From Limisphaerales bacterium (lineage in GTDB: Bacteria > Verrucomicrobiota > Verrucomicrobiia > Limisphaerales > UBA11358), in contig PMOA01000083.1 of assembly GCA_003161635.1 (NCBI GenBank), positions 1-49,729 on the forward strand: a stretch of DNA of 49,729 nt, written 5' to 3'. The notes beneath the pieces are model-generated. The model was not told the origin of the DNA, did not search any database, and saw nothing but the letters and a program-made list of their open reading frames with translations. Positions 27,049 to 37,995 of the stretch are shown in pieces. Position 1 is the first letter of the stretch, and each line of letters starts with the position of its first letter. A program made the position numbers and the translations under genes.

Positions 27049-27990
27049 CTATCGCATCCGGTCGAAATTCTTCTGGAGAATCTGCCAGTCTTTCAAGCCT
27101 TTGACTTTTTCCATCATGCCGCGATTGATCTCGGCTTCCTTCGCGTTTTTGGTCGGCTTGTTGATGTTGTATAAAATTCCAAAGTAACCGGGGAAATCCG
27201 TGCCGGCGAGCTGGTAGGCGGCCTGTTCGTCGGTCGCGTCGTGATCCTTCGGAACTTCCTTGAACATGCCGCCTTTGCGGGGATTTGCGGCGTCAAACGC
27301 GCCTTCGTAAAATTCCACGCATTCACTGAGACATTCAACGAAGCCGAAACCGTCGTGGTTCATCGCGGCCTCCATCATCGCCAGCACGTGGTTTGGGTTC
27401 GTGGACGTGGTGCGCGCGACGAACGTGGCGCCGGCGGCGATGGCCTGTTTCATCGGGTTGATGGGATAATCCACCGCGCCCCATGGGTCGGTCTTGCTCT
27501 TGAAACCGAGCGGCGACGTGGGCGAAGTCTGCTTTTTCGTCAGGCCATAAACCCAGTTGTCCATGACGACATAAGTGAGCTTCACATTTTTGCGCGCGGT
27601 ATGACTGAAATGATTGCCGCCAATCGAATATGCGTCGCCGTCGCCGCCGAAAACAAACACGTGCAAATCCGGCCGGGAAAGTGAAATGCCGCTGGCAAAC
27701 GGCAGCGCGCGTCCGTGGATAAAATGCACCCCGTGCGCCTGCACAAAATACGGAAACCGGCTCGAACAACCGATGCCCGCGACACTGACGAATTGCTCGT
27801 GCGTGAGCTTGCTCTTTTCGATGAGCTTGAAGTAAAGCGCGAGCACCGAGAAATCGCCGCAACCGGGACACCACGTCGGGTGATCGGCGGCGAGTTCCTT
27901 TTTCGTCAGCCCCTTGCGCCCGGAATCGGGGGGCGGCGCCGCGACGGGAACATCCACACGCAAGGGACTTTCAGTAATCGTTTCGCTCAT
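27049..27990 (-). CDS. korB: 2-Oxoacid:ferredoxin oxidoreductase, beta subunit
   Basis: A 313-residue thiamine-diphosphate-binding subunit. It shows the N-terminal HPTWCPGCGDFSVL segment and the ThDP/Mg motif in GGDGDAYSIGG, followed by NVKLTYVVMDNWVYGLTKKQ, which is diagnostic of the KorB/PorB family. With the alpha subunit it oxidatively decarboxylates a 2-oxoacid to an acyl-CoA while reducing ferredoxin. It starts 21 bp after korA ends. 2-Oxoglutarate is the usual substrate of this two-gene arrangement with a fused gamma-alpha subunit, but pyruvate or branched-chain oxoacids cannot be excluded. Confidence 0.92.
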   Translation of the reverse strand: MSETITESPLRVDVPVAAPPPDSGRKGLTKKELAADHPTWCPGCGDFSVLALYFKLIEKSKLTHEQFVSVAGIGCSSRFPYFVQAHGVHFIHGRALPFASGISLSRPDLHVFVFGGDGDAYSIGGNHFSHTARKNVKLTYVVMDNWVYGLTKKQTSPTSPLGFKSKTDPWGAVDYPINPMKQAIAAGATFVARTTSTNPNHVLAMMEAAMNHDGFGFVECLSECVEFYEGAFDAANPRKGGMFKEVPKDHDATDEQAAYQLAGTDFPGYFGILYNINKPTKNAKEAEINRGMMEKVKGLKDWQILQKNFDRMR

Positions 27991-28011
27991 AAATCTTTTT
28001 GGCTTTGAAAA

Positions 28012-29841
28012 TTAGACGGTTTTGGCGGCCCGGCCGTTCGAGGACAATTTGAGTTTCACCGCCGCGAGAATTTCCTTCACCTTCCACGTCAGGCCGTCGG
28101 TTTTGTTGATGCCCCGGATCCGGGGATCGCAATAACGGGCGCGCAGCATGCCGGCAAGCTGGCCGTATCCGTAAAACCCTTCATCGTTCATCTCCACGAC
28201 GAACACGTGGTGGAAACCGGAGAAAATGTTGTCCAAACGATTCGGCAGCGGACTGAGATATTTGATATGCAGCGACGAGATGCTGTCGCCGGCGGCGCGG
28301 GCGCGATCCACGGCTTCGCGAATCGGGCCTTGCGTCGAACCCCAGCCGACGAGCAGGACGTTGCCCTCCGGCGGACCGTGAACCTTCGGCACGGGCACCG
28401 TCGCCTGGAGGGCCAGCAGTTTCTTGCGCCGCTTGGCGACCATGGCCTGGTGCATCTTGGGCGCGCCGGTCGGGTGGCCGGCTTCATCGTGCTCGAGGCC
28501 GGTCGCAACGGGATATTTGCCGCTGGCAATGCGCGTGCCAGGCACGACCCGCGGGACCACCCCGTCCGGGGTGGACAAATCATACGGCGTGAAATCGGGA
28601 ACCATCGTCAGGTCGGGCGAAATGTCCTGGCAGACTTTTTCGAGGTTCGGCTCTGGAAACGCCTCAATGCGCGTGGCGATGGCCTGGTCGCTCAAAATGA
28701 AAACCGGGACGTTGTATTTGCGCGCGATGTTGACGGCCTCGATGGCGGTGTAAAAACAATCTTCGACGTTGGCCGGCGCCAGCACGACACGGGGCGAGTC
28801 GCCGTGGCTGCCAAAGCGGGCAATGTTCAGATCGGATTGCTCGACGCTGGTCGGCAAGCCGGTGGACGGCCCGCCACGCTGGACATCCACAATCACCAGC
28901 GGCACTTCGGCCATGACCGCCCAACCCAGCGCTTCACTCTTCAGGGAAATGCCCGGTCCGCTGGAGCCGGTGACGGCCACCCGGCCCGCATAGCTCGCGC
29001 CCACGGCCATTGAGATGGACGCGATTTCGTCCTCGCACTGGATAAACGAGCCGCCGTATTTGGGCAATTCGCGCCGGAGCAATTCCATGACGTCGGTCCA
29101 TGGCGTAATGGGATAACCCGCGCCGAAACGGACGCCCGCCGCGATCAGGCCGTAACCCAGCGCTTCATTGCCGTTCATGACGACCTGATGGCCGCCTTTG
29201 CCCGGGCCTTCGGTGAATTTGAAAGTTTCCAGCAAATTGCCGGTGTCATAGGAATAACCCGCGTGAAACGCCACCAGCGCATTTTTCACGATGCTTTCAT
29301 CCCTGCCGCCAAAGCGTTCGGCAATCAGTTTTTCCAGTTTCGGCACATTGAGATCGAACGTCCGCGCGATAAGGCCGAGCGCGTAAATATTTTTGCCCTT
29401 GTCCTTGGCCGTGCCGCCAATGGCCTCGACGGCCAGCGTGGAAATGGGAATGCCGACGTGGTGATAGTCTTTTTGCCATTCGGGCTTTGGTTCGACGTGG
29501 TCGGCATCAAAAAGCACGATGCCGCCTTTTTTGAGCGAGCCGATGTGTTCTTCGTAGGAATGCTGGTAAAGCGCCAGCAGCACGTCGGCCTCGTCACCCG
29601 CGCTCAGGACTTCGCCCGAACCGATGCGCACCTGAAAAATGGACGGGCCACCGGAAATGGTGGGCGGAATCGTCATGAAGGTCATGACTTCCTGCTCGCT
29701 GCGGCCGGCCAGCCGCGCGAGGAATCCGCCGATGGCCTGGATGCCATCCTGCGAATTGCCGGCAATGCGGATCACCGCCTCGTTGATCCGCGAAACTTTC
29801 GGCGCGCCACCCGGCGACGCGGCTGTCATTGTGTCACTCAT
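28012..29841 (-). CDS. korA: 2-Oxoacid:ferredoxin oxidoreductase, fused gamma-alpha subunit
   Basis: A 609-residue protein. Residues about 20-195 are the gamma domain (VIRIAGNSQDGIQAIGGFLA, then PPTISGGPSIFQVRIGSGEV). From about residue 225 the alpha domain follows (GYPITPWTDVMELLRRELPK, then TGSSGPGISLKSEALG and VQRGGPSTGLPTSVEQSDL), with a C-terminal domain II. The fusion is the common bacterial form of KorA. The ATG at 29841 has GAGG a few bases upstream. A promoter candidate lies at 29923-29952. Together with korB it would supply reduced ferredoxin or feed the TCA cycle. Confidence 0.93.
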   Translation of the reverse strand: MSDTMTAASPGGAPKVSRINEAVIRIAGNSQDGIQAIGGFLARLAGRSEQEVMTFMTIPPTISGGPSIFQVRIGSGEVLSAGDEADVLLALYQHSYEEHIGSLKKGGIVLFDADHVEPKPEWQKDYHHVGIPISTLAVEAIGGTAKDKGKNIYALGLIARTFDLNVPKLEKLIAERFGGRDESIVKNALVAFHAGYSYDTGNLLETFKFTEGPGKGGHQVVMNGNEALGYGLIAAGVRFGAGYPITPWTDVMELLRRELPKYGGSFIQCEDEIASISMAVGASYAGRVAVTGSSGPGISLKSEALGWAVMAEVPLVIVDVQRGGPSTGLPTSVEQSDLNIARFGSHGDSPRVVLAPANVEDCFYTAIEAVNIARKYNVPVFILSDQAIATRIEAFPEPNLEKVCQDISPDLTMVPDFTPYDLSTPDGVVPRVVPGTRIASGKYPVATGLEHDEAGHPTGAPKMHQAMVAKRRKKLLALQATVPVPKVHGPPEGNVLLVGWGSTQGPIREAVDRARAAGDSISSLHIKYLSPLPNRLDNIFSGFHHVFVVEMNDEGFYGYGQLAGMLRARYCDPRIRGINKTDGLTWKVKEILAAVKLKLSSNGRAAKTV

Positions 29842-30495: not shown

Positions 30496-30692
30496 CCGCA
30501 AGTTTTATTTGGCGGACTTGGGAAGCCAACCTGTGGCGTACCGTTTTAATCCTAAATTCAGCAGTTCATTTAGGCCTGCCTTAGGAATTCAACAAGGCTG
30601 GCCATTGAGCGTCGGAATTTCTTCTGGTAATTGACCTTTACGTCTTTGCTGACTTGCTGTCGTATGAATTCGTAGTTCGGACCTTTGAATAG

Positions 30693-31046
30693 GTCGAGCA
30701 AATCAGCGAAGTTCTTGGTGGAAGCGAAGTCGATTATTTCCCCACAAAAAACGGTCGTATAGTCTGCGGTTGCTTCACTCTGGAGCACAATCCCGAAGCG
30801 CCAAACAGCATTATATCCGGCTCTGGCCCGATCATTGCGCATGAAGCCGATCTTTTCTGCAGACAGAATTCACTCGTTCCCATCTTCATTAAGCGCCGTC
30901 CCAATGAATGGGAATATGTCGGCGACTACAAGGCCGTGCGCTATTCAAATGACCCGGCTGAAATTGCTGCGCACCACAATGGTTCAATCATACCTTTGAA
31001 CGAAGCCACCCGTGTCATTTTCTTGCAGCGCGCAGCGATGTCGTAA
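30693..31046 (+). pseudogene. C-terminal gene fragment (DUF6697-like), no start codon
   Basis: A 117-codon open stretch with convincing protein character: PTKNGRIVCGCFTLEHNPEA, then IIAHEADLFCRQNSLVPIFI, KRRPNEWEYVGDYKAVRYS, and RVIFLQ near the end. The frame is closed by TAG at 30690-30692, and there is no ATG, GTG or TTG in its first part. The pattern (CGxF..NP..P.I..G.GP then P.FIKR..NEWEYVGDY) recalls a domain of unknown function seen in restriction- or HNH-associated proteins; I believe DUF6697 but cannot verify. It looks like the 3' remnant of a larger gene. Confidence 0.55.
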
Positions 31047-31064
31047 CAACCAACAGGCAAAACC

Positions 31065-31268
31065 ATGCGCTTCACGATTGAACGTAAACGGCTGGTCAAA
31101 ATGCTCGAAAGTGTCCGGCGCACAAGTTGCGGACAAAAGAAAAAGGACAAAGAGGTGCGGTTGTATGCGTGTGCGGCGCGCGTGTTCGTGGAGGCGAACG
31201 GCGGCGGCGCGGGCGTTTTCGGAGTGGACGACCAGGCGGTCAGCCGGGCGGCACGGGCGCGGGTCTGA
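31065..31268 (+). pseudogene. Fragment resembling the N terminus of a sliding-clamp-like protein
   Basis: A 67-codon frame beginning MRFTIERKRLVKMLESVRR, much like the start of DNA polymerase III beta-type proteins (MKFTIER...L...L..V). It continues KEVRLYACAARVFVEANG before becoming low-complexity and stopping. A full clamp is ~360 residues, so this is a fragment or a decayed gene. A 14-bp tandem duplication overlaps its stop. It could also be an independent small protein. Confidence 0.4.
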
Positions 31269-31288
31269 AGTAGTGGGTCTGAAGTAGT
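31261..31288. repeat. 14-bp direct tandem duplication
   Basis: GGGTCTGAAGTAGT occurs twice in a row. The first copy contains the stop codon of the small clamp-like frame. It is probably a replication-slippage scar in decaying DNA. Confidence 0.8.
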
Positions 31289-31375
31289 TGACGCCACGCA
31301 GGGTTCACGCTAAAGCTTCGATTAAGCAACCTTCGTAGCCGCCAAAATATCCCGGCATTTGCGGGGGACGACAAT

Positions 31376-31948
31376 ATGCAAACGATTCTGCCATCCGAGT
31401 TCAAACGCCAGATGGTTCTGCTGCTGGAAGGCGCCCCTCATGTCATCGAGGATTTGCACACCAGCGGCACCGCCCAGACCCGACACAAACTCCACACCCG
31501 CCTGCGCCACCTCACGACCGGCCGCCTCATTGACCGCGTTTTCGCCGAAAACGAGCGCGTGGCCGTGGCCCCACTGGAAACCCGCCGCGTTACTTACAGC
31601 TACGCGCAGGCCGACCGGCAGGTTTTCATTGATGCCGAGACTTTCGAGGAGTTCGAGTTCAGCAACGAACAACTCGGTGAGCGCCGCTGGTTTCTCAAGG
31701 AGAACGAGGAATATAAAGCCTTGCGGCTCGATGGCCGGCTCCTCGACATCGTCTTGCCGCCGCAAATACCGCTCAAAGTTGTGGACACCGCTCCGCCCGG
31801 TCGTGGCGGCTTGAACTCGTCATGGAAGGAGGCGAAGCTCGAAACTGGCCTCCAAATCATGGTTCCGCTGTTCATCGCCAACGGCGAAATAATCCGCGTT
31901 GACACCGCCGAAAAGAAATACTTGGGCAGGGAAACGTCCGGGGAATAG
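31376..31948 (+). CDS. Elongation factor P family protein with Gln at position 34
   Basis: A 190-residue three-domain EF-P family protein, which normally relieves ribosome stalling at polyproline. The fold marks are present from start to end: SEFKRQMVLLLEGAPHVIED, TETY-like DAETFEEFEFSNEQLGERRWF, LETGLQIMVPLFI, and the terminal VDTAEKKYLG. Aligned without gaps to E. coli EF-P, the tip loop reads GTAQTRHK. The modifiable Lys34 is therefore Gln34, and Arg is absent from the same site too. A good Shine-Dalgarno (GGGGGA) lies 7 nt before ATG 31376. The gene is intact although both sides hold decayed genes. It may be a specialised paralogue in addition to a standard EF-P elsewhere. Confidence 0.88.
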   Translation: MQTILPSEFKRQMVLLLEGAPHVIEDLHTSGTAQTRHKLHTRLRHLTTGRLIDRVFAENERVAVAPLETRRVTYSYAQADRQVFIDAETFEEFEFSNEQLGERRWFLKENEEYKALRLDGRLLDIVLPPQIPLKVVDTAPPGRGGLNSSWKEAKLETGLQIMVPLFIANGEIIRVDTAEKKYLGRETSGE

Positions 31949-32013
31949 GGAAAAGGTCCTAGAATTGTGACATTTTCTGGTCTTGTTTGCTCCCGACTTT
32001 TTCATGCCACGAT

Positions 32014-32290
32014 TTACCAAATGAATTCATTGATAAGGTTCTCCAGGAATTCCTGGCGACCGCTGACATTCGGCGCCGCTTCGCCCTGCTTGAGCAGGTA
32101 GCTCTCGAGTTCCACCAAACCCACCTTGCCGCCCCGATTTTCGCACCGATACCGGAATCCCACGAGGCGTAGCGTTGTTCCACGAATTTCGCGGGCCGGT
32201 GGCGGCGGGGTCCATGACGTTGTCGAAGGCGAGGTGCCGTTCGTAAAGCCCGTCCGTACCGGTGAACTGGGCCGGGCAACAGACTTCGCT
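32014..32290 (-). pseudogene. Frameshifted remnants: xylose isomerase-like tail and a second gene fragment
   Basis: Reading the minus strand, three frames each carry a plausible piece. KFVEQRYASWDSGIGAKI is in one frame. GGKVGLVELESYLLKQGEAA is in the next and ends SGRQEFLENLINEFIW before a TAA at 32016-32014. These two join into a typical xylose isomerase C terminus (the SGRQE.LENL motif is characteristic) if a 1- or 2-base shift near the CGGGG run at about 32130 is undone. Just upstream, in a third frame, DGLYERHLAFDNVMDPAATG resembles the N-terminal region of an alpha-glucan phosphorylase, so a deletion may have joined two genes. I see nothing else in 31949-32426. Confidence 0.5.
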
Positions 32291-32426
32291 TTCCGCCGCA
32301 CAATCATTATCAGAAGCGGATATGATAACGCTGAAACCAAAGAACGACCCAATCTGCATTGGCTTTCTCTGGCTGTTGTTGTGAAAACTACGGGCACTAA
32401 AACGGGCGCTAAATCCGTTATATTTC

Positions 32427-33896
32427 TTAAATCACCAGTGTAATAATGGAATGGGCCGGGCTGCCGGTTCTTGTGGCTTTACCACCCAACCAGAGGATGA
32501 AAGGCTGTGCTTGATTGGAAAGATTTAGGATCACAACTGCAATTTTTCCGTCTGTATTTAGGAAGGCGGTGGTCAGCAATTGATCAGTCGTTGATGAACT
32601 GATAATCCGTTTTGCGCCCGGACGGATGAATTTTGAAAAATGGCCGATGTAGTAATAGGAATTCATGTAATATAATTTCCCGGTTTTGGTATCGGCATGA
32701 ATCGGCGCAAAACAAAAATTCCGAACGTGGTTTGGGCCGCCCTTTTTATCCAGCAACACATTCCAATCCGTCCAGCCTTCGGCGCCATTGTTGAAATCGT
32801 TGATCATTGATTTGGCATAGGTCTCGCCCCCCTGCCAATCGTTGATTTTGCTGAAATCAAAAGGATAGTTGCAAGCTTCGGTAAACAAGAGGTGAGTCTT
32901 TGGATAAGCTTCCTTGACGCGTTTGACGTTCTCGAAGTCGTCTCCCATATACCAATGGAAACCGACGCCCCATACATATTGGGCGGCAGCCGGATCATCC
33001 AAAACCACCGATGCGCGTTGATACATCAAACTGCGGTTGTGATCCCAAATGATGATTCTTTTATCTTTCAAGCCGTCTTTTTGCAAAGCCGGGCCAAGAT
33101 AATTTTTAAGAAAATCGCGCTCTTCCTCAGCCGTGTAAATACAGGACTCCCAAGACTGAATGGCCATCGGCTCGTTCTGCACCGTTAATCCCCAAATCGG
33201 AATGCCTTCCTTTTCATAGGCATGAATGAACTTGCCGTAATAGCGCGCCCACGACTCGTAATATTCCGGTTTCAGTTTGCCTCCATGAAGCATACTGCCG
33301 TTGTCCTTCATCCAGCCGGGCGGACTCCAAGGACTGACGAAAAGCGTGAAATTATTTCCTGCTTTCGCCATCGCCGCCTTGATGAACGGGATGCGATATT
33401 TCAAATCATGGGAGATGTCGAAGCTGTCCAGTTGCTTATCGCCATCCTTGACGTATGTGTAACTCTCGCTTGAAAAATCGCAACTGTGGATGTGGGTTCG
33501 TCCGAGCGTATATCCGATGCCATTTTGCGGATCAAAATAGGCCCTCAAGATTTCCTGTTGTTTATCCTTGGGAAGTTTATAGAAAGTTTCCGCCGAGGCA
33601 TCCGTCAAAGCGCCGCCGATGCCGAGGACGGTTTGAAATGTTTTTGAAGGGTCTATGTAAATTTCTGCGTCTTTTTCGGTTGGCGATAATTTATCATTAA
33701 ATCCAATTTCTTCAGATTTTGCCAGCCGTTGTCCCGTATCTTTCGCTGTCAGATAAACCTCGGCATATTTTTTCGAATCGTCTGAACCGGCATGAGAAGG
33801 AATGCGGGTCGCAAGCAAAATCAATGCGGTTAGCAAAGCTGAAGAAAGTGCCTTTGAAGCTAAATTGTCCACGAAAGCCGTTGTAATTCTGTTCAT
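32427..33896 (-). CDS. GH30 family glycosidase (glucosylceramidase/beta-glucanase type), secreted
   Basis: A 489-residue glycoside hydrolase family 30 enzyme. The N terminus has a signal peptide (ALSSALLTALILLATRIPSHA, residues about 16-36). The clan-A catalytic pair is visible: acid/base Glu242 in LTVQNEPMA and nucleophile Glu340 in LLFTEACNY. Other family marks are FQTVLGIGGALTDASAETF and WSPPGWMKDNGSM. The C-terminal beta-sandwich (IAVVILNLSNQAQPFILWL) is complete. GH30 members act on beta-1,6- or beta-1,3-glucans, xylans or glucosylceramide. This sequence fits the glucanase/glucosidase subgroups best, as inferred from pattern only. It is last in a 17-kb same-strand carbohydrate locus, 41 bp after the GH2 gene. 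Confidence 0.9.
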   Translation of the reverse strand: MNRITTAFVDNLASKALSSALLTALILLATRIPSHAGSDDSKKYAEVYLTAKDTGQRLAKSEEIGFNDKLSPTEKDAEIYIDPSKTFQTVLGIGGALTDASAETFYKLPKDKQQEILRAYFDPQNGIGYTLGRTHIHSCDFSSESYTYVKDGDKQLDSFDISHDLKYRIPFIKAAMAKAGNNFTLFVSPWSPPGWMKDNGSMLHGGKLKPEYYESWARYYGKFIHAYEKEGIPIWGLTVQNEPMAIQSWESCIYTAEEERDFLKNYLGPALQKDGLKDKRIIIWDHNRSLMYQRASVVLDDPAAAQYVWGVGFHWYMGDDFENVKRVKEAYPKTHLLFTEACNYPFDFSKINDWQGGETYAKSMINDFNNGAEGWTDWNVLLDKKGGPNHVRNFCFAPIHADTKTGKLYYMNSYYYIGHFSKFIRPGAKRIISSSTTDQLLTTAFLNTDGKIAVVILNLSNQAQPFILWLGGKATRTGSPAHSIITLVI

Positions 33897-33937: not shown

Positions 33938-36900
33938 TTACTTTAATGTGGTTGCGGGATTGAAAGGATTGTTATTTCCGCTGCGTCCTTCGAAACCACT
34001 CGGGGGGTATGGAGAGCGAGTTGGGTTTGCCATCGTTGACAACTGTTCCGATTGAATGACCTTGGTACTTGCGATCAGGCCGACGCCCCCTGGCGGCACT
34101 GACGCGAGTGTGTGAATCTCGGCATCGCTCAGGAGGCGGTTGTAGATACGCACATCAGCAATTGCGCCCTTCCAAGCCCGGCTCAACCCTGACTTGTTGC
34201 CAATGTATCCCGTACCAGCACTCGTGGGGACACTGCCGGATGGTGTGGTAATGGTTTCGGGAGGCAGCCTGACACCGTTGATAAATAATGTCGGGGGATT
34301 TAGTAAATTATTGGGGTCATAACGCACGGCGATGTGATGCCACGCGCCGTGACTGATCGTATTCACCCCCGAAAACCAATCGCCATTCCGGGTTGTTGTA
34401 CAAGTGGCAAAATCAAAACCATTGGTACCCTGGCTGTCAAATCGGAAAAATAGTCGATAACCCGGAGTGTCCAAAATGTGCGGGTAGGCACTATTGCCCC
34501 GCCCTTCGGAACGCACCCAAGCGGCCAGAGTGACCTGGCTGCTGGTGTCTGGCGAAGCAAAAGTCGCAACACTGGTCGTGCCATTAAAGTAGAGTGCGTT
34601 GGAAAAACAACCGGTGTTGAACACCGCTCCATTCACAGCTGCATGGAGACCGTTCCCCGACGAATCAGCCGCAGTAGTGCCCCCCGCCTCATCCATCTTC
34701 CACCACGTCAATAGCCCGTTGGTCACCCCAAAATCGGGCCCCACCACCACGGTCAGATCGACGTTCGTCACCCCCCCGTTGTTGGCGTTGAAAGCCAGAC
34801 CATAAATGCCATTGGCACTGAAACTCGCAATCGTACCGAGGGCGTTGGTGCTACCGAAGGTGACGCTGCCAGGGCCGCTGAGCTGAGTCCACATGGTAGT
34901 CAAAGAGTTATTCGGCACGGTATTGCTAACTGTGGCGGACAGTTGCAAAGTGTCATTGGTGCTGTTCAGATAAACGATGGAGGCAGCGGGACTAATAATC
35001 GCAGCCACAGGCGGCAAGAATGGAGCAATCCACACCAAGGAATCACTCACCTTGACGTTGACTTTGGCACCAATCGCCTGAACGACATTTGTTCCCCCGA
35101 GCAGCTTTACAGGCCAAATAAAGATACAATTCGTGCTGGTGCAACTACCTTGTGAAATTCCGTTGAGAAATAGTTCGACTGAATCGCAATTGGCATAAAC
35201 TTTGGCTGTAATGGTATTGGTCAGCCGATTAGTAAAAGTGTGCCCCGTGATATATACCATCGGATTCGTTGTCCAGTTGGCTTTGTAATAGTAGAAAGCG
35301 TCCTTGCGCACCTGACGGTCGTAAGTTACCAGTCCCTTGTCATTGCGCCCCGGTGTGTCACCTTCGTTGCGACCGGCAACCGCGAAATCAAACATGTTCC
35401 AAACGAACTTGCACCAAAGGAGTGGCCGCGCCTGCATCTCTTGCCAATAAGTTTCATGAAAAAGATTTTGGTATTCTTCGGGGTGATAATGGCCGGCGTT
35501 TGCAGGTTCACGCACCGGATCTTCGCTGTGCTGATAAATGCTGGCGCCGGCGCCGTACTCGCTGATACCAAGCCGACGGTTGGGATATTTCGCGTGAATC
35601 CCATCGGCCCAAGCCCCCAATTCTCCAAGCTTGCCGTTATACCAGCCAAAATATTTATTGAAGGAATTTAATTCAGTGCACCAATTGGACGGCTCGTCAT
35701 CACTCGCGTTGGCGGCGGATGTCGAAGGGCGTGTGGGGTCTTCCTGTGCGACAAGCTGTGCCAGTTGGCGGACCAGATTGGCAGGCTTGGGTCCGGGTTT
35801 CATGGTAATCTCATTGAACACGCCCCAGCAAACCACTGACGGATGATTATAGCGTTGCCGGATGAGTTCGATAAGCTGCTGTTTGGCATTGGCGTAAAAG
35901 GCGGGCGATTCAGTGATACGATTAACCAGCGGAATCTCGCTCCAAAGAATAATCCCATTTTGATCTGCCAATTGGTAAGTATAATCATTGTGTTCGTAGT
36001 GCGATAGACGAACAGCCGTAACTCCAATCTCTTTCAGCAACATGAAATTCGTGTTCCGCTGCACATCGGCGATGGCCCAGCCGCGATCCGGCCAATCCTG
36101 ATGCATACTCACACCGTGAAGATCGTAATGTCGTCCATTCAGAAAAAAACCTTTGTTCGCATCTACGCTGAAATAACGAAAGCCCAGCGGCTGGGCGACC
36201 ACGTCAACCACCTTCGAGCCTTTCCATACTTCAGTAAAGGTCTGATATAAATATGGGTCGGAAAGTCCGTTCCATAAATGCGGTCTGGTAATCGTTGTAG
36301 AGGCAACAATGTTTGACGCAATCGCCGGTGGCAGGGTCACGACATTAGTAAGAACAGCCACGATATTTGTCGCCGCATCGGTGACAACGCTTCGGACTGT
36401 TACAATCTGCGCCATCGCGGTTGAGTTTGAAAGAACAGCCGTCACTTGGAGGTTCGCGGAATTGGAACTGACACTGGTCGTTTTCAGATAGATTCCCGGC
36501 GAACCGTAGTCCAGCGGTGAAATCTGCACCGGGTCGGTCGCGAGCAGATGCACGTCACGATACAATCCACCGAAGAAAGTAAAGTCCGCCGACAGCGGGG
36601 GGATATTTGTATTCACGGCGTTGTTCACCTTCACGGCGATAAGATTATCCGCGCCGACATTGAGGTAAGGAGTAACATCATAAACAAATGCCGAGAACCC
36701 GCCTTGATGCTCGCCGACAAAGCTGCCGTTGACATAAACATCGGCAACGGAAGATGCGCCGTCAAATTTCAAAAAGAATTGGTGGCCCGTGAAGTTCTTG
36801 TCCACCGTGTAATGCCTTCGATACCAGCCTGCGCCACGATAGTAATTTTTCACACCGTCTTGACCGTCGAGATTGTTCCATGTGTGCGGCAAGTTTATTA

Positions 36901-37135
36901 CTGACCAGGCCGAATCGTCAAAGTTGCTGTTCTGCGCACCGGCCACATCCTCCCGGATAAACCGCCAGCCGGGATCCAGAATCACGTCCACGCGTTCGTT
37001 CGCTGGCGGGGTGTAGGGCTGGGCAGTAATCGATGCCACTGTACACAAAAGGATCAGGCAAATATTCATCACGCTCCCCACTGAGCGAGGAACGATGCCA
37101 GCAACAGGACAGTAACTTCTTGGCTTTTGCTTCAT
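33938..37135 (-). CDS. GH2 family beta-glycosidase with C-terminal LamG domain, secreted
   Basis: A 1065-residue protein. Domain order: signal sequence (NICLILLCTVASITA); GH2 sugar-binding domain (WRFIREDVAG..., RRHYTVDKNFTGHQFFLKFD, DVYVNGSFVGEHQGGFS); immunoglobulin-like domain; TIM barrel with acid/base Glu in CWGVFNEITM and nucleophile Glu in LGISEYGAGA; then a GH2 C-terminal region. It ends with a LamG/concanavalin-like domain (LLTWWKMDEAGGTTAADSSG, LAAWVRSEGRG). I favour ATG 37135, which gives a basic n-region (MKQKPRSY). ATG 37069 has a better Shine-Dalgarno (GGGGAG) and is an alternative. Beta-galactosidase, beta-glucuronidase or beta-glucosidase activity are all possible. The LamG module suggests polysaccharide or cell-surface binding. 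Confidence 0.88.
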   Translation of the reverse strand: MKQKPRSYCPVAGIVPRSVGSVMNICLILLCTVASITAQPYTPPANERVDVILDPGWRFIREDVAGAQNSNFDDSAWSVINLPHTWNNLDGQDGVKNYYRGAGWYRRHYTVDKNFTGHQFFLKFDGASSVADVYVNGSFVGEHQGGFSAFVYDVTPYLNVGADNLIAVKVNNAVNTNIPPLSADFTFFGGLYRDVHLLATDPVQISPLDYGSPGIYLKTTSVSSNSANLQVTAVLSNSTAMAQIVTVRSVVTDAATNIVAVLTNVVTLPPAIASNIVASTTITRPHLWNGLSDPYLYQTFTEVWKGSKVVDVVAQPLGFRYFSVDANKGFFLNGRHYDLHGVSMHQDWPDRGWAIADVQRNTNFMLLKEIGVTAVRLSHYEHNDYTYQLADQNGIILWSEIPLVNRITESPAFYANAKQQLIELIRQRYNHPSVVCWGVFNEITMKPGPKPANLVRQLAQLVAQEDPTRPSTSAANASDDEPSNWCTELNSFNKYFGWYNGKLGELGAWADGIHAKYPNRRLGISEYGAGASIYQHSEDPVREPANAGHYHPEEYQNLFHETYWQEMQARPLLWCKFVWNMFDFAVAGRNEGDTPGRNDKGLVTYDRQVRKDAFYYYKANWTTNPMVYITGHTFTNRLTNTITAKVYANCDSVELFLNGISQGSCTSTNCIFIWPVKLLGGTNVVQAIGAKVNVKVSDSLVWIAPFLPPVAAIISPAASIVYLNSTNDTLQLSATVSNTVPNNSLTTMWTQLSGPGSVTFGSTNALGTIASFSANGIYGLAFNANNGGVTNVDLTVVVGPDFGVTNGLLTWWKMDEAGGTTAADSSGNGLHAAVNGAVFNTGCFSNALYFNGTTSVATFASPDTSSQVTLAAWVRSEGRGNSAYPHILDTPGYRLFFRFDSQGTNGFDFATCTTTRNGDWFSGVNTISHGAWHHIAVRYDPNNLLNPPTLFINGVRLPPETITTPSGSVPTSAGTGYIGNKSGLSRAWKGAIADVRIYNRLLSDAEIHTLASVPPGGVGLIASTKVIQSEQLSTMANPTRSPYPPSGFEGRSGNNNPFNPATTLK

Positions 37136-37193
37136 ACCAAATGTCGAGGCGGTCTGATATTGCGTGTTCGCAGGTTGCGGGGGCGCATTTTTT

Positions 37194-37211
37194 ACTTTGT
37201 CAATACAAAGT
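37194..37211. promoter_or_regulatory. Perfect 7-4-7 palindrome upstream of the GH2 gene (candidate operator)
   Basis: ACTTTGT-CAAT-ACAAAGT is a perfect inverted repeat about 60 bp upstream of the GH2 start at 37135. Read on the minus strand its middle also contains TTGACA, a -35-like hexamer. It could bind a dimeric regulator, the neighbouring NarL-type protein being the obvious candidate (inference). Confidence 0.4.
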
Positions 37212-37267
37212 GTCACCGCATACCATTTGAAAACGCCTCCCATGCTAGAATTTTGGGGAATTCTTAC

Positions 37268-37287
37268 CATCCCTCTTTCGGGGGATG
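37268..37287 (-). terminator. Possible terminator hairpin after the response regulator gene
   Basis: CATCCC pairs with GGGATG across an 8-base loop about 80 bp downstream of the response regulator stop on the minus strand. No T run follows, so it may equally be a processing or pausing hairpin. It lies in the 230-bp gap before the GH2 gene, consistent with a separate GH2 promoter. Confidence 0.3.
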
Positions 37288-37365
37288 CGCAAAGGCAGCT
37301 GGCATGATACAAAGCTTCTTGATTGCAAATTCTTTTGAGCTTGATGGCCATTGGAAATACAAAGA

Positions 37366-37995
37366 TCACAAATGAATGATTCCCCGTTGAATCGCTGTCG
37401 TGACTGCTTCTGTTCTATCTGCCACACGGAGTTTGGCGAGAATGTTTTTTAAATGGTCCTTCACCGTATGCTCGGAAATGTTAAGAATATCGGCGATTTC
37501 CTTGTTTGCCAATCCCTTGGCGAGTTCGTCCAACACCTGCACCTCGCGGGAGGTTAATTCTTCAAATGATTCCCGGGCTGCCAGTCGGCTGGCGACCTCT
37601 TTCGGAATCCAGCGTTGTCCGGCCACCACGGCTCGCAGTGCAGGAATAAGTTTTTCTCCGGAAGAATTCTTAAATACATATCCTTGGGCCCCGGCTTGAA
37701 GTGCCTTGTGAATTTCTTCATCGCCATCAAATGCGGTCAGCATTATAATTCGTGCAGAAGGAAATTGGGCTCGGATTTCCATCGTGGTCTGAATGCCATT
37801 TTTGACCGGCATCCGCATGTCCAACAGCGCAAGGTCCGGTTTGCATCGGACAAAGAATTCGAGTGCTTGAGCACCATCCGACGCTTCCGCCACGACTTCC
37901 ATGTCCGGTTCGGTGTTCAGCAGCGCGATCAACCCCATCCTCACAATGTAATGGTCGTCAGCTATCAGGATGCGTATCTTCTCTGGTTTCTTCAT
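37366..37995 (-). CDS. NarL/FixJ-type response regulator
   Basis: A 209-residue two-component response regulator. The receiver domain has the acidic pocket (IADDH, Asp13-Asp14), the phosphorylation site Asp59 in ALLDMRMP, and the conserved Lys in GYVFKNS. The C-terminal LuxR-type helix-turn-helix is EELTSREVQVLDELAKGLAN followed by ISEHTVKDHLKNILAKL. I start it at ATG 37995 (MKKPEKIRIL), which overlaps the 3' end of the kinase gene by 38 bp and suggests coupling. A start at 38016 is possible. It likely controls the surrounding glycosidase genes (inference from position). Confidence 0.93.
   Translation of the reverse strand: MKKPEKIRILIADDHYIVRMGLIALLNTEPDMEVVAEASDGAQALEFFVRCKPDLALLDMRMPVKNGIQTTMEIRAQFPSARIIMLTAFDGDEEIHKALQAGAQGYVFKNSSGEKLIPALRAVVAGQRWIPKEVASRLAARESFEELTSREVQVLDELAKGLANKEIADILNISEHTVKDHLKNILAKLRVADRTEAVTTAIQRGIIHL

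Follow-up and report, generated by a model that had tools for sequence, protein, structure and literature searches.

A conserved Gln34-type EF-P paralogue of Verrucomicrobiota with an altered domain-3 loop

The described systems closest to the gene reported here are EF-P and EfpL (YeiP) of Escherichia coli. E. coli EF-P carries Lys34 in a seven-residue loop formed by residues 31–37 (PMC6544042), and the GDT motif in loop I of its third domain (residues 144–146) touches the E-site codon at its first two bases (PMC11611912). EfpL has Arg33 at its tip and a Pro three residues earlier, and its loop exceeds that of EF-P by two residues; mass spectrometry found Arg33 to be unmodified, and EfpL relieves stalling (PMC11611912). 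How EF-P acts without tip modification has so far been addressed with EfpL and with the EF-P of actinobacteria. EF-Ps with Gln at the tip are already present in two surveys (Volkwein 2019, PMC6544042; Sieber 2024, PMC11611912), where the residue is only listed in the parts covered here. In the covered part of the first survey, Gln at the tip is never combined with Pro32 (PMC6544042). The literature searched contained no experimental work on an EF-P with Gln at the tip.

The window (the whole stretch of 49,729 nucleotides that was analysed) contains the gene for a Gln34-type EF-P paralogue at 31376–31948 on the + strand. Its product shares with E. coli EF-P the three domains, the length, the seven-residue loop and the placement of residue 34 at the apex. 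However, the two proteins are only 27% identical, Gln34 and Thr32 replace Lys34 and Pro32, and the GDT of domain 3 has been replaced within a loop that is one residue shorter. The paralogue is similar to EfpL in accompanying a main EF-P as an additional EF-P-like protein, in having no modified lysine, in its altered GDT (KGASA in EfpL) and in its modelled fold (highest TM-score 0.87, to PDB 8S8U). Yet the Arg33 tip and the preceding Pro of EfpL are absent from the paralogue, which has Gln34 and Gly31 instead in the alignment, and so is the longer loop, as the model has seven loop residues and the alignment a two-residue gap versus EfpL. The Asn34 main EF-P of the same genome resembles the paralogue in pairing an amide residue at 34 with Arg36 (PGNLR versus TAQTR in the paralogue), but it is 30% identical to the paralogue and retains Pro32 as well as a GDS motif. 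As in the surveyed Gln-tip EF-Ps, within the part of the survey covered, Gln occurs in the paralogue without Pro32. A subfamily that combines a conserved Gln loop with loss of GDT beside an Asn34 EF-P appears to be new; we found no description of it in the literature searched, although the Gln-tip EF-Ps of the surveys may include members of it.

Family assignment and register of the tip loop

The reading frame runs uninterrupted from ATG to TAG and encodes 190 aa, so the gene is intact, as a sequence-only reading of this DNA had claimed. The three Pfam domains all score above their gathering cut-offs, with 25.3 bits for EFP_N (cut-off 23), 48.7 bits for EFP/OB (cut-off 27) and 62.5 bits for Elong-fact-P_C (cut-off 25). 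The protein is a full three-domain EF-P in the broad sense of the family, having the KOW-like, OB and C-terminal domains.

The NCBIfam models for EF-P and EfpL also give strong matches, every one of them under its curated cut-off. This applies both to canonical EF-P (150 bits against 185.8 for TIGR00038 and 148.5 bits against 161 for PRK00529) and to EfpL/YeiP (110.6 bits against 216 for PRK04542 and 99.8 bits against 264 for TIGR02178). As all scores stay below the cut-offs, the product is an EF-P-like protein outside any existing named subfamily. By sequence, the closest solved structures are EF-Ps. The AlphaFold2 model has a mean pLDDT of 87.3, and its full-length matches in the PDB are EF-P or EfpL, with EfpL 8S8U at the top.

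Gln34 (codon CAG, 31475–31477, + strand) lies opposite Lys34 of E. coli EF-P in an alignment that is gap-free up to and through the tip. Between the conserved Gly19 and the tip, zero shifts are required against either E. coli EF-P or EfpL. In the AlphaFold2 model, β3 spans residues 20–30 and β4 residues 38–45, leaving residues 31–37 (GTAQTRH, 31466–31486, + strand) as the loop with Gln34 at its centre; confidence near residues 31–40 averages 72. The loop is thus predicted to have the canonical EF-P length of seven residues. The earlier proposal of an EF-P paralogue lacking Lys or Arg at position 34, with Gln34 in the Lys34 register and with Arg36 and Lys38 near the tip yet off its apex, is borne out by the domain matches, the alignment and the modelled loop limits. 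An improved alignment bringing Lys or Arg to position 34, which that proposal had named as refuting it, did not emerge, and a register with Arg36 or Lys38 as the true tip is excluded by the gap-free alignment and the loop limits.

A subfamily beside an Asn34 EF-P

From GTDB contigs and whole genomes we collected 38 distinct paralogues. Wherever their origin is known they come from Verrucomicrobiota, mostly from Limisphaerales (Verrucomicrobia subdivision 3); one belongs to a different lineage of the same class (genome G066) and two belong to a different class of the phylum (G284 and G323). Hits were also obtained in records of the culturable relatives Limisphaera and Methylacidiphilum. Residue 34 is Gln in 36 of them and Lys in the other two, and Gln34 is therefore neither a sequencing error nor a chance substitution. 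Gly31, Ala33 and His40 are present in 38/38. Position 36 is always basic (Arg in 25, Lys in 13), as is position 38 (Lys in 31, Arg in 7), and most of the loops resemble GTAQT[R/K]HK.

In a maximum-likelihood tree all 38 paralogues form a single clade (support 100/99), apart from the clades of Asn34 EF-P (100/100), Lys34 EF-P (100/96) and EfpL (100/99). EfpL appears as the sister of the paralogue clade (99/86), a join that the long branches render unsure in a tree whose bootstrap fell short of full settling. The two Lys34 paralogues nest within the group, and the tree is compatible with a change between Lys and Gln in either direction. The tip could be modified in that sub-lineage, and these two members offer a natural one-residue comparison. 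They are found in G323 (L078) and G284 (L079), have the loop GTAKTKHKLH and are each one of three EF-P homologues in their genome.

Both of these genomes contain a Lys34 EF-P, an EfpL and the paralogue, and this co-occurrence means that the paralogue is distinct from EfpL. Together with the scores under the EfpL cut-offs and the separate clades, it led us to reject membership in EfpL. The paralogue clade is a small EF-P subfamily of Verrucomicrobiota that coincides with neither the main EF-P nor EfpL.

The paralogue was found in only 26 of the 293 sampled genomes of the order (17 of 118 genera) and must therefore be dispensable. Two copies, or fragments of two, are present in five of the genomes used. 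Some genomes have the variant loop GAAQAKPKMH in one of their two paralogues (L061/L062/L070 and L067/L069), hinting at additional diversification.

The genome from which the window derives (94.6% complete) has exactly one further EF-P, located on contig C114 (7964–8550, − strand), with the tip RTPGNLRAF, that is Asn34 and Arg36. Asn34 with Arg36 is common to every main EF-P of the order read in this analysis and, unlike the paralogue, this type of EF-P is present in nearly every sampled genome. A search for a second EF-P of the Lys34 type, which the sequence-only reading had put forward as a check, gave none in the 94.6%-complete assembly, where the two EF-Ps found carry Asn34 and Gln34. The contrast with a Lys34 EF-P that this reading implied is thus unsupported, and both tips lack a modifiable Lys or Arg. 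A strongly conserved Gln-tip subfamily beside an Asn-tip EF-P offers natural proteins for testing if a position-34 amide can replace a modified Lys or Arg.

Domain-3 loop, tip modification and proposed function

A second change, missed in the earlier reading, concerns loop I of domain 3. The codons for residues 139–151 (APPGRGGLNSSWK, 31790–31828, + strand) align with the region that holds GDT in E. coli EF-P, and a GDT-like motif is absent; the protein of the window has RGGL instead. In the paralogues as a group, loop I is one residue shorter than in E. coli EF-P and mostly reads GGS...WK, with Gly145 in 34 of 38, an aromatic residue at position 150 in all 38 (Trp in 32, Tyr in 5, Phe in 1) and Lys151 likewise in all 38. 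The AlphaFold2 model is less certain here than elsewhere (pLDDT about 69 at residues 141–150). The replacement of GDT suggests, from the alignment, that codon preference may differ as well as tip chemistry, and these are natural proteins for asking if the domain-3 loop determines the codons served.

We consider it probable that the gene encodes a working and separate EF-P paralogue of Verrucomicrobiota, an accessory factor with other or broader stalling contexts than those of the Asn34 EF-P, since its loop I has lost the codon-contacting GDT. Most likely, by analogy, it would be an unmodified, EfpL-like anti-stalling factor with an altered context preference. By homology it would bind the E site beside the peptidyl-tRNA. 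In the simplest reading, the Gln34 loop and the conserved basic residues would contact the CCA end without modification, and the changed domain-3 loop would give the protein other contexts than the main factor. The earlier reading had offered action without modification or the use of another residue or chemistry, and the former appears the likelier option. The analogy to EfpL is incomplete because EfpL compensates through two extra loop residues and Arg at its tip (PMC11611912), both absent here. The Lys34 of two members and the occurrence in few genomes of the order also weigh against the proposed role. More tentatively, an unmodified loop of the form GTAQT[R/K][H/P][K/R] combined with a rebuilt codon loop may direct the paralogue to different stalled ribosomes, in bacteria whose two EF-Ps both have tips devoid of a modifiable Lys or Arg.

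Alternatively, the paralogue could be active on the ribosome with a loop modified at Gln34, Arg/Lys36 or Lys/Arg38 by an unrecognised enzyme, for example a deoxyhypusine-synthase-like (DHS-like) protein. The Arg or Lys at positions 36 and 38 of all 38 members and the Lys34 of two members are consistent with this, as is a DHS-like gene in the genome itself (contig C50, 11941–12837), a type of gene also described from bacteria whose EF-P has Lys or Asn at its tip (PMC6544042). Yet across 14 genomes the DHS-like genes do not follow the paralogue: none was found in G032, which has two paralogues, or in G323, and some paralogue-free genomes have one; the DHS-like gene was accordingly rejected as the partner of the paralogue. 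Nor is there a candidate modifier among the neighbours. Setting aside EF-P itself and its shadow frames, no gene recurs in more than 4 of the 28 loci compared, and an operon or a neighbouring modifier gene was rejected on this basis. As residues 36 and 38 also lie off the apex in the model, we regard a modified loop as unlikely.

Among the known modification enzymes, EpmA gave no match over the TIGR00462 cut-off in the 94.6%-complete genome, the top match being a full-length lysyl-tRNA synthetase of 482 aa. EarP gave no match across 59 genomes, with the control genomes equally silent. The DHS-like genes of the order are of two kinds, scoring ∼210–231 bits and ∼131–144 bits; some genomes have both, and G032 and G323 have neither.

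A competitor or regulator is another conceivable role, in which the protein would bind the E site without stimulating peptide-bond formation and thereby slow chosen codons or spare idle ribosomes. Both functional ends are changed, namely the tip with Gln34 and the codon-contact loop without GDT, and even EF-P and EfpL can induce pausing (PMC11611912). However, the tip loop shows strict conservation and no drift, as would be expected if it touched an unchanging partner, for instance the peptidyl-tRNA, and nothing points positively to inhibition. We therefore give this role little credence compared with that of an accessory anti-stalling factor.

Selection and surroundings of the gene

Comparison of the paralogue with three relatives gave dN/dS values of 0.22, 0.10, and 0.08. 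Against the sister-species genome G032, dN is 0.044 and dS 0.203 for the paralogue, and 0.041 and 0.221 for the main EF-P. This shared pace speaks against decay and favours joint vertical descent of the two genes over that interval. The paralogue is under ordinary purifying selection, in agreement with the selection on the gene suspected earlier. Its annotation as a Gln34-type EF-P paralogue gene thus combines these ratios with the open reading frame, the three Pfam domains and the 38-member clade.

The same reading had described the surroundings as decaying, which agrees with the degraded look of the flanks. For the two closest relatives that have flanking sequence, similarity at the DNA level is confined to ∼31263–31953, i.e., the gene plus 110 bp, and a DUF6697 fragment lies upstream. 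This fragment (30693–31046, + strand; 25.1 bits) appears to be a truncated gene that lacks a start of its own, within a debris-like stretch at 30500–31370. A relic gene on its way to being lost, with Gln34 as a degenerative change, would fit the degraded flanks and the patchy presence, but it is contradicted so clearly by the intactness of every completely sequenced member, by dN/dS and a pace equal to that of the main EF-P, and by Gln34 in 36 of the 38 members, drawn from many families, that we consider it highly improbable. Carriage by phages or plasmids was also rejected, as only distant EF-P/YeiP matches (<60% identity) were obtained.

Upstream of the gene, the Shine-Dalgarno sequence, earlier called strong, turned out to be only moderate: the possible motif GGGGGA (31363–31368, + strand) lies 7 nt before the ATG and is not conserved in relatives. 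Further upstream, inside the shared 110 bp, we found a promoter-like pair, TTGACG and TAAAGC with a 17-nt spacing (31288–31316, + strand). TTGACG and the spacing are common to the window and to three relatives (L045, L046, and L048), with TAAAGC, TACAGC, TAAAGC, and TAAGAG, respectively, as second hexamers. The TTGACG/TAAAGC pair scores under the threshold of the consensus scan, and the sharing with relatives suggests that the paralogue gene may have its own promoter.

Downstream, xylose-isomerase-like debris was suspected by eye at 32014–32397, a segment in which no Pfam match was found. The window also contains genes for a two-subunit 2-oxoacid:ferredoxin oxidoreductase (27049–29841, − strand), next to a GH30 gene (32427–33896) and a GH2 gene (33938–37369).
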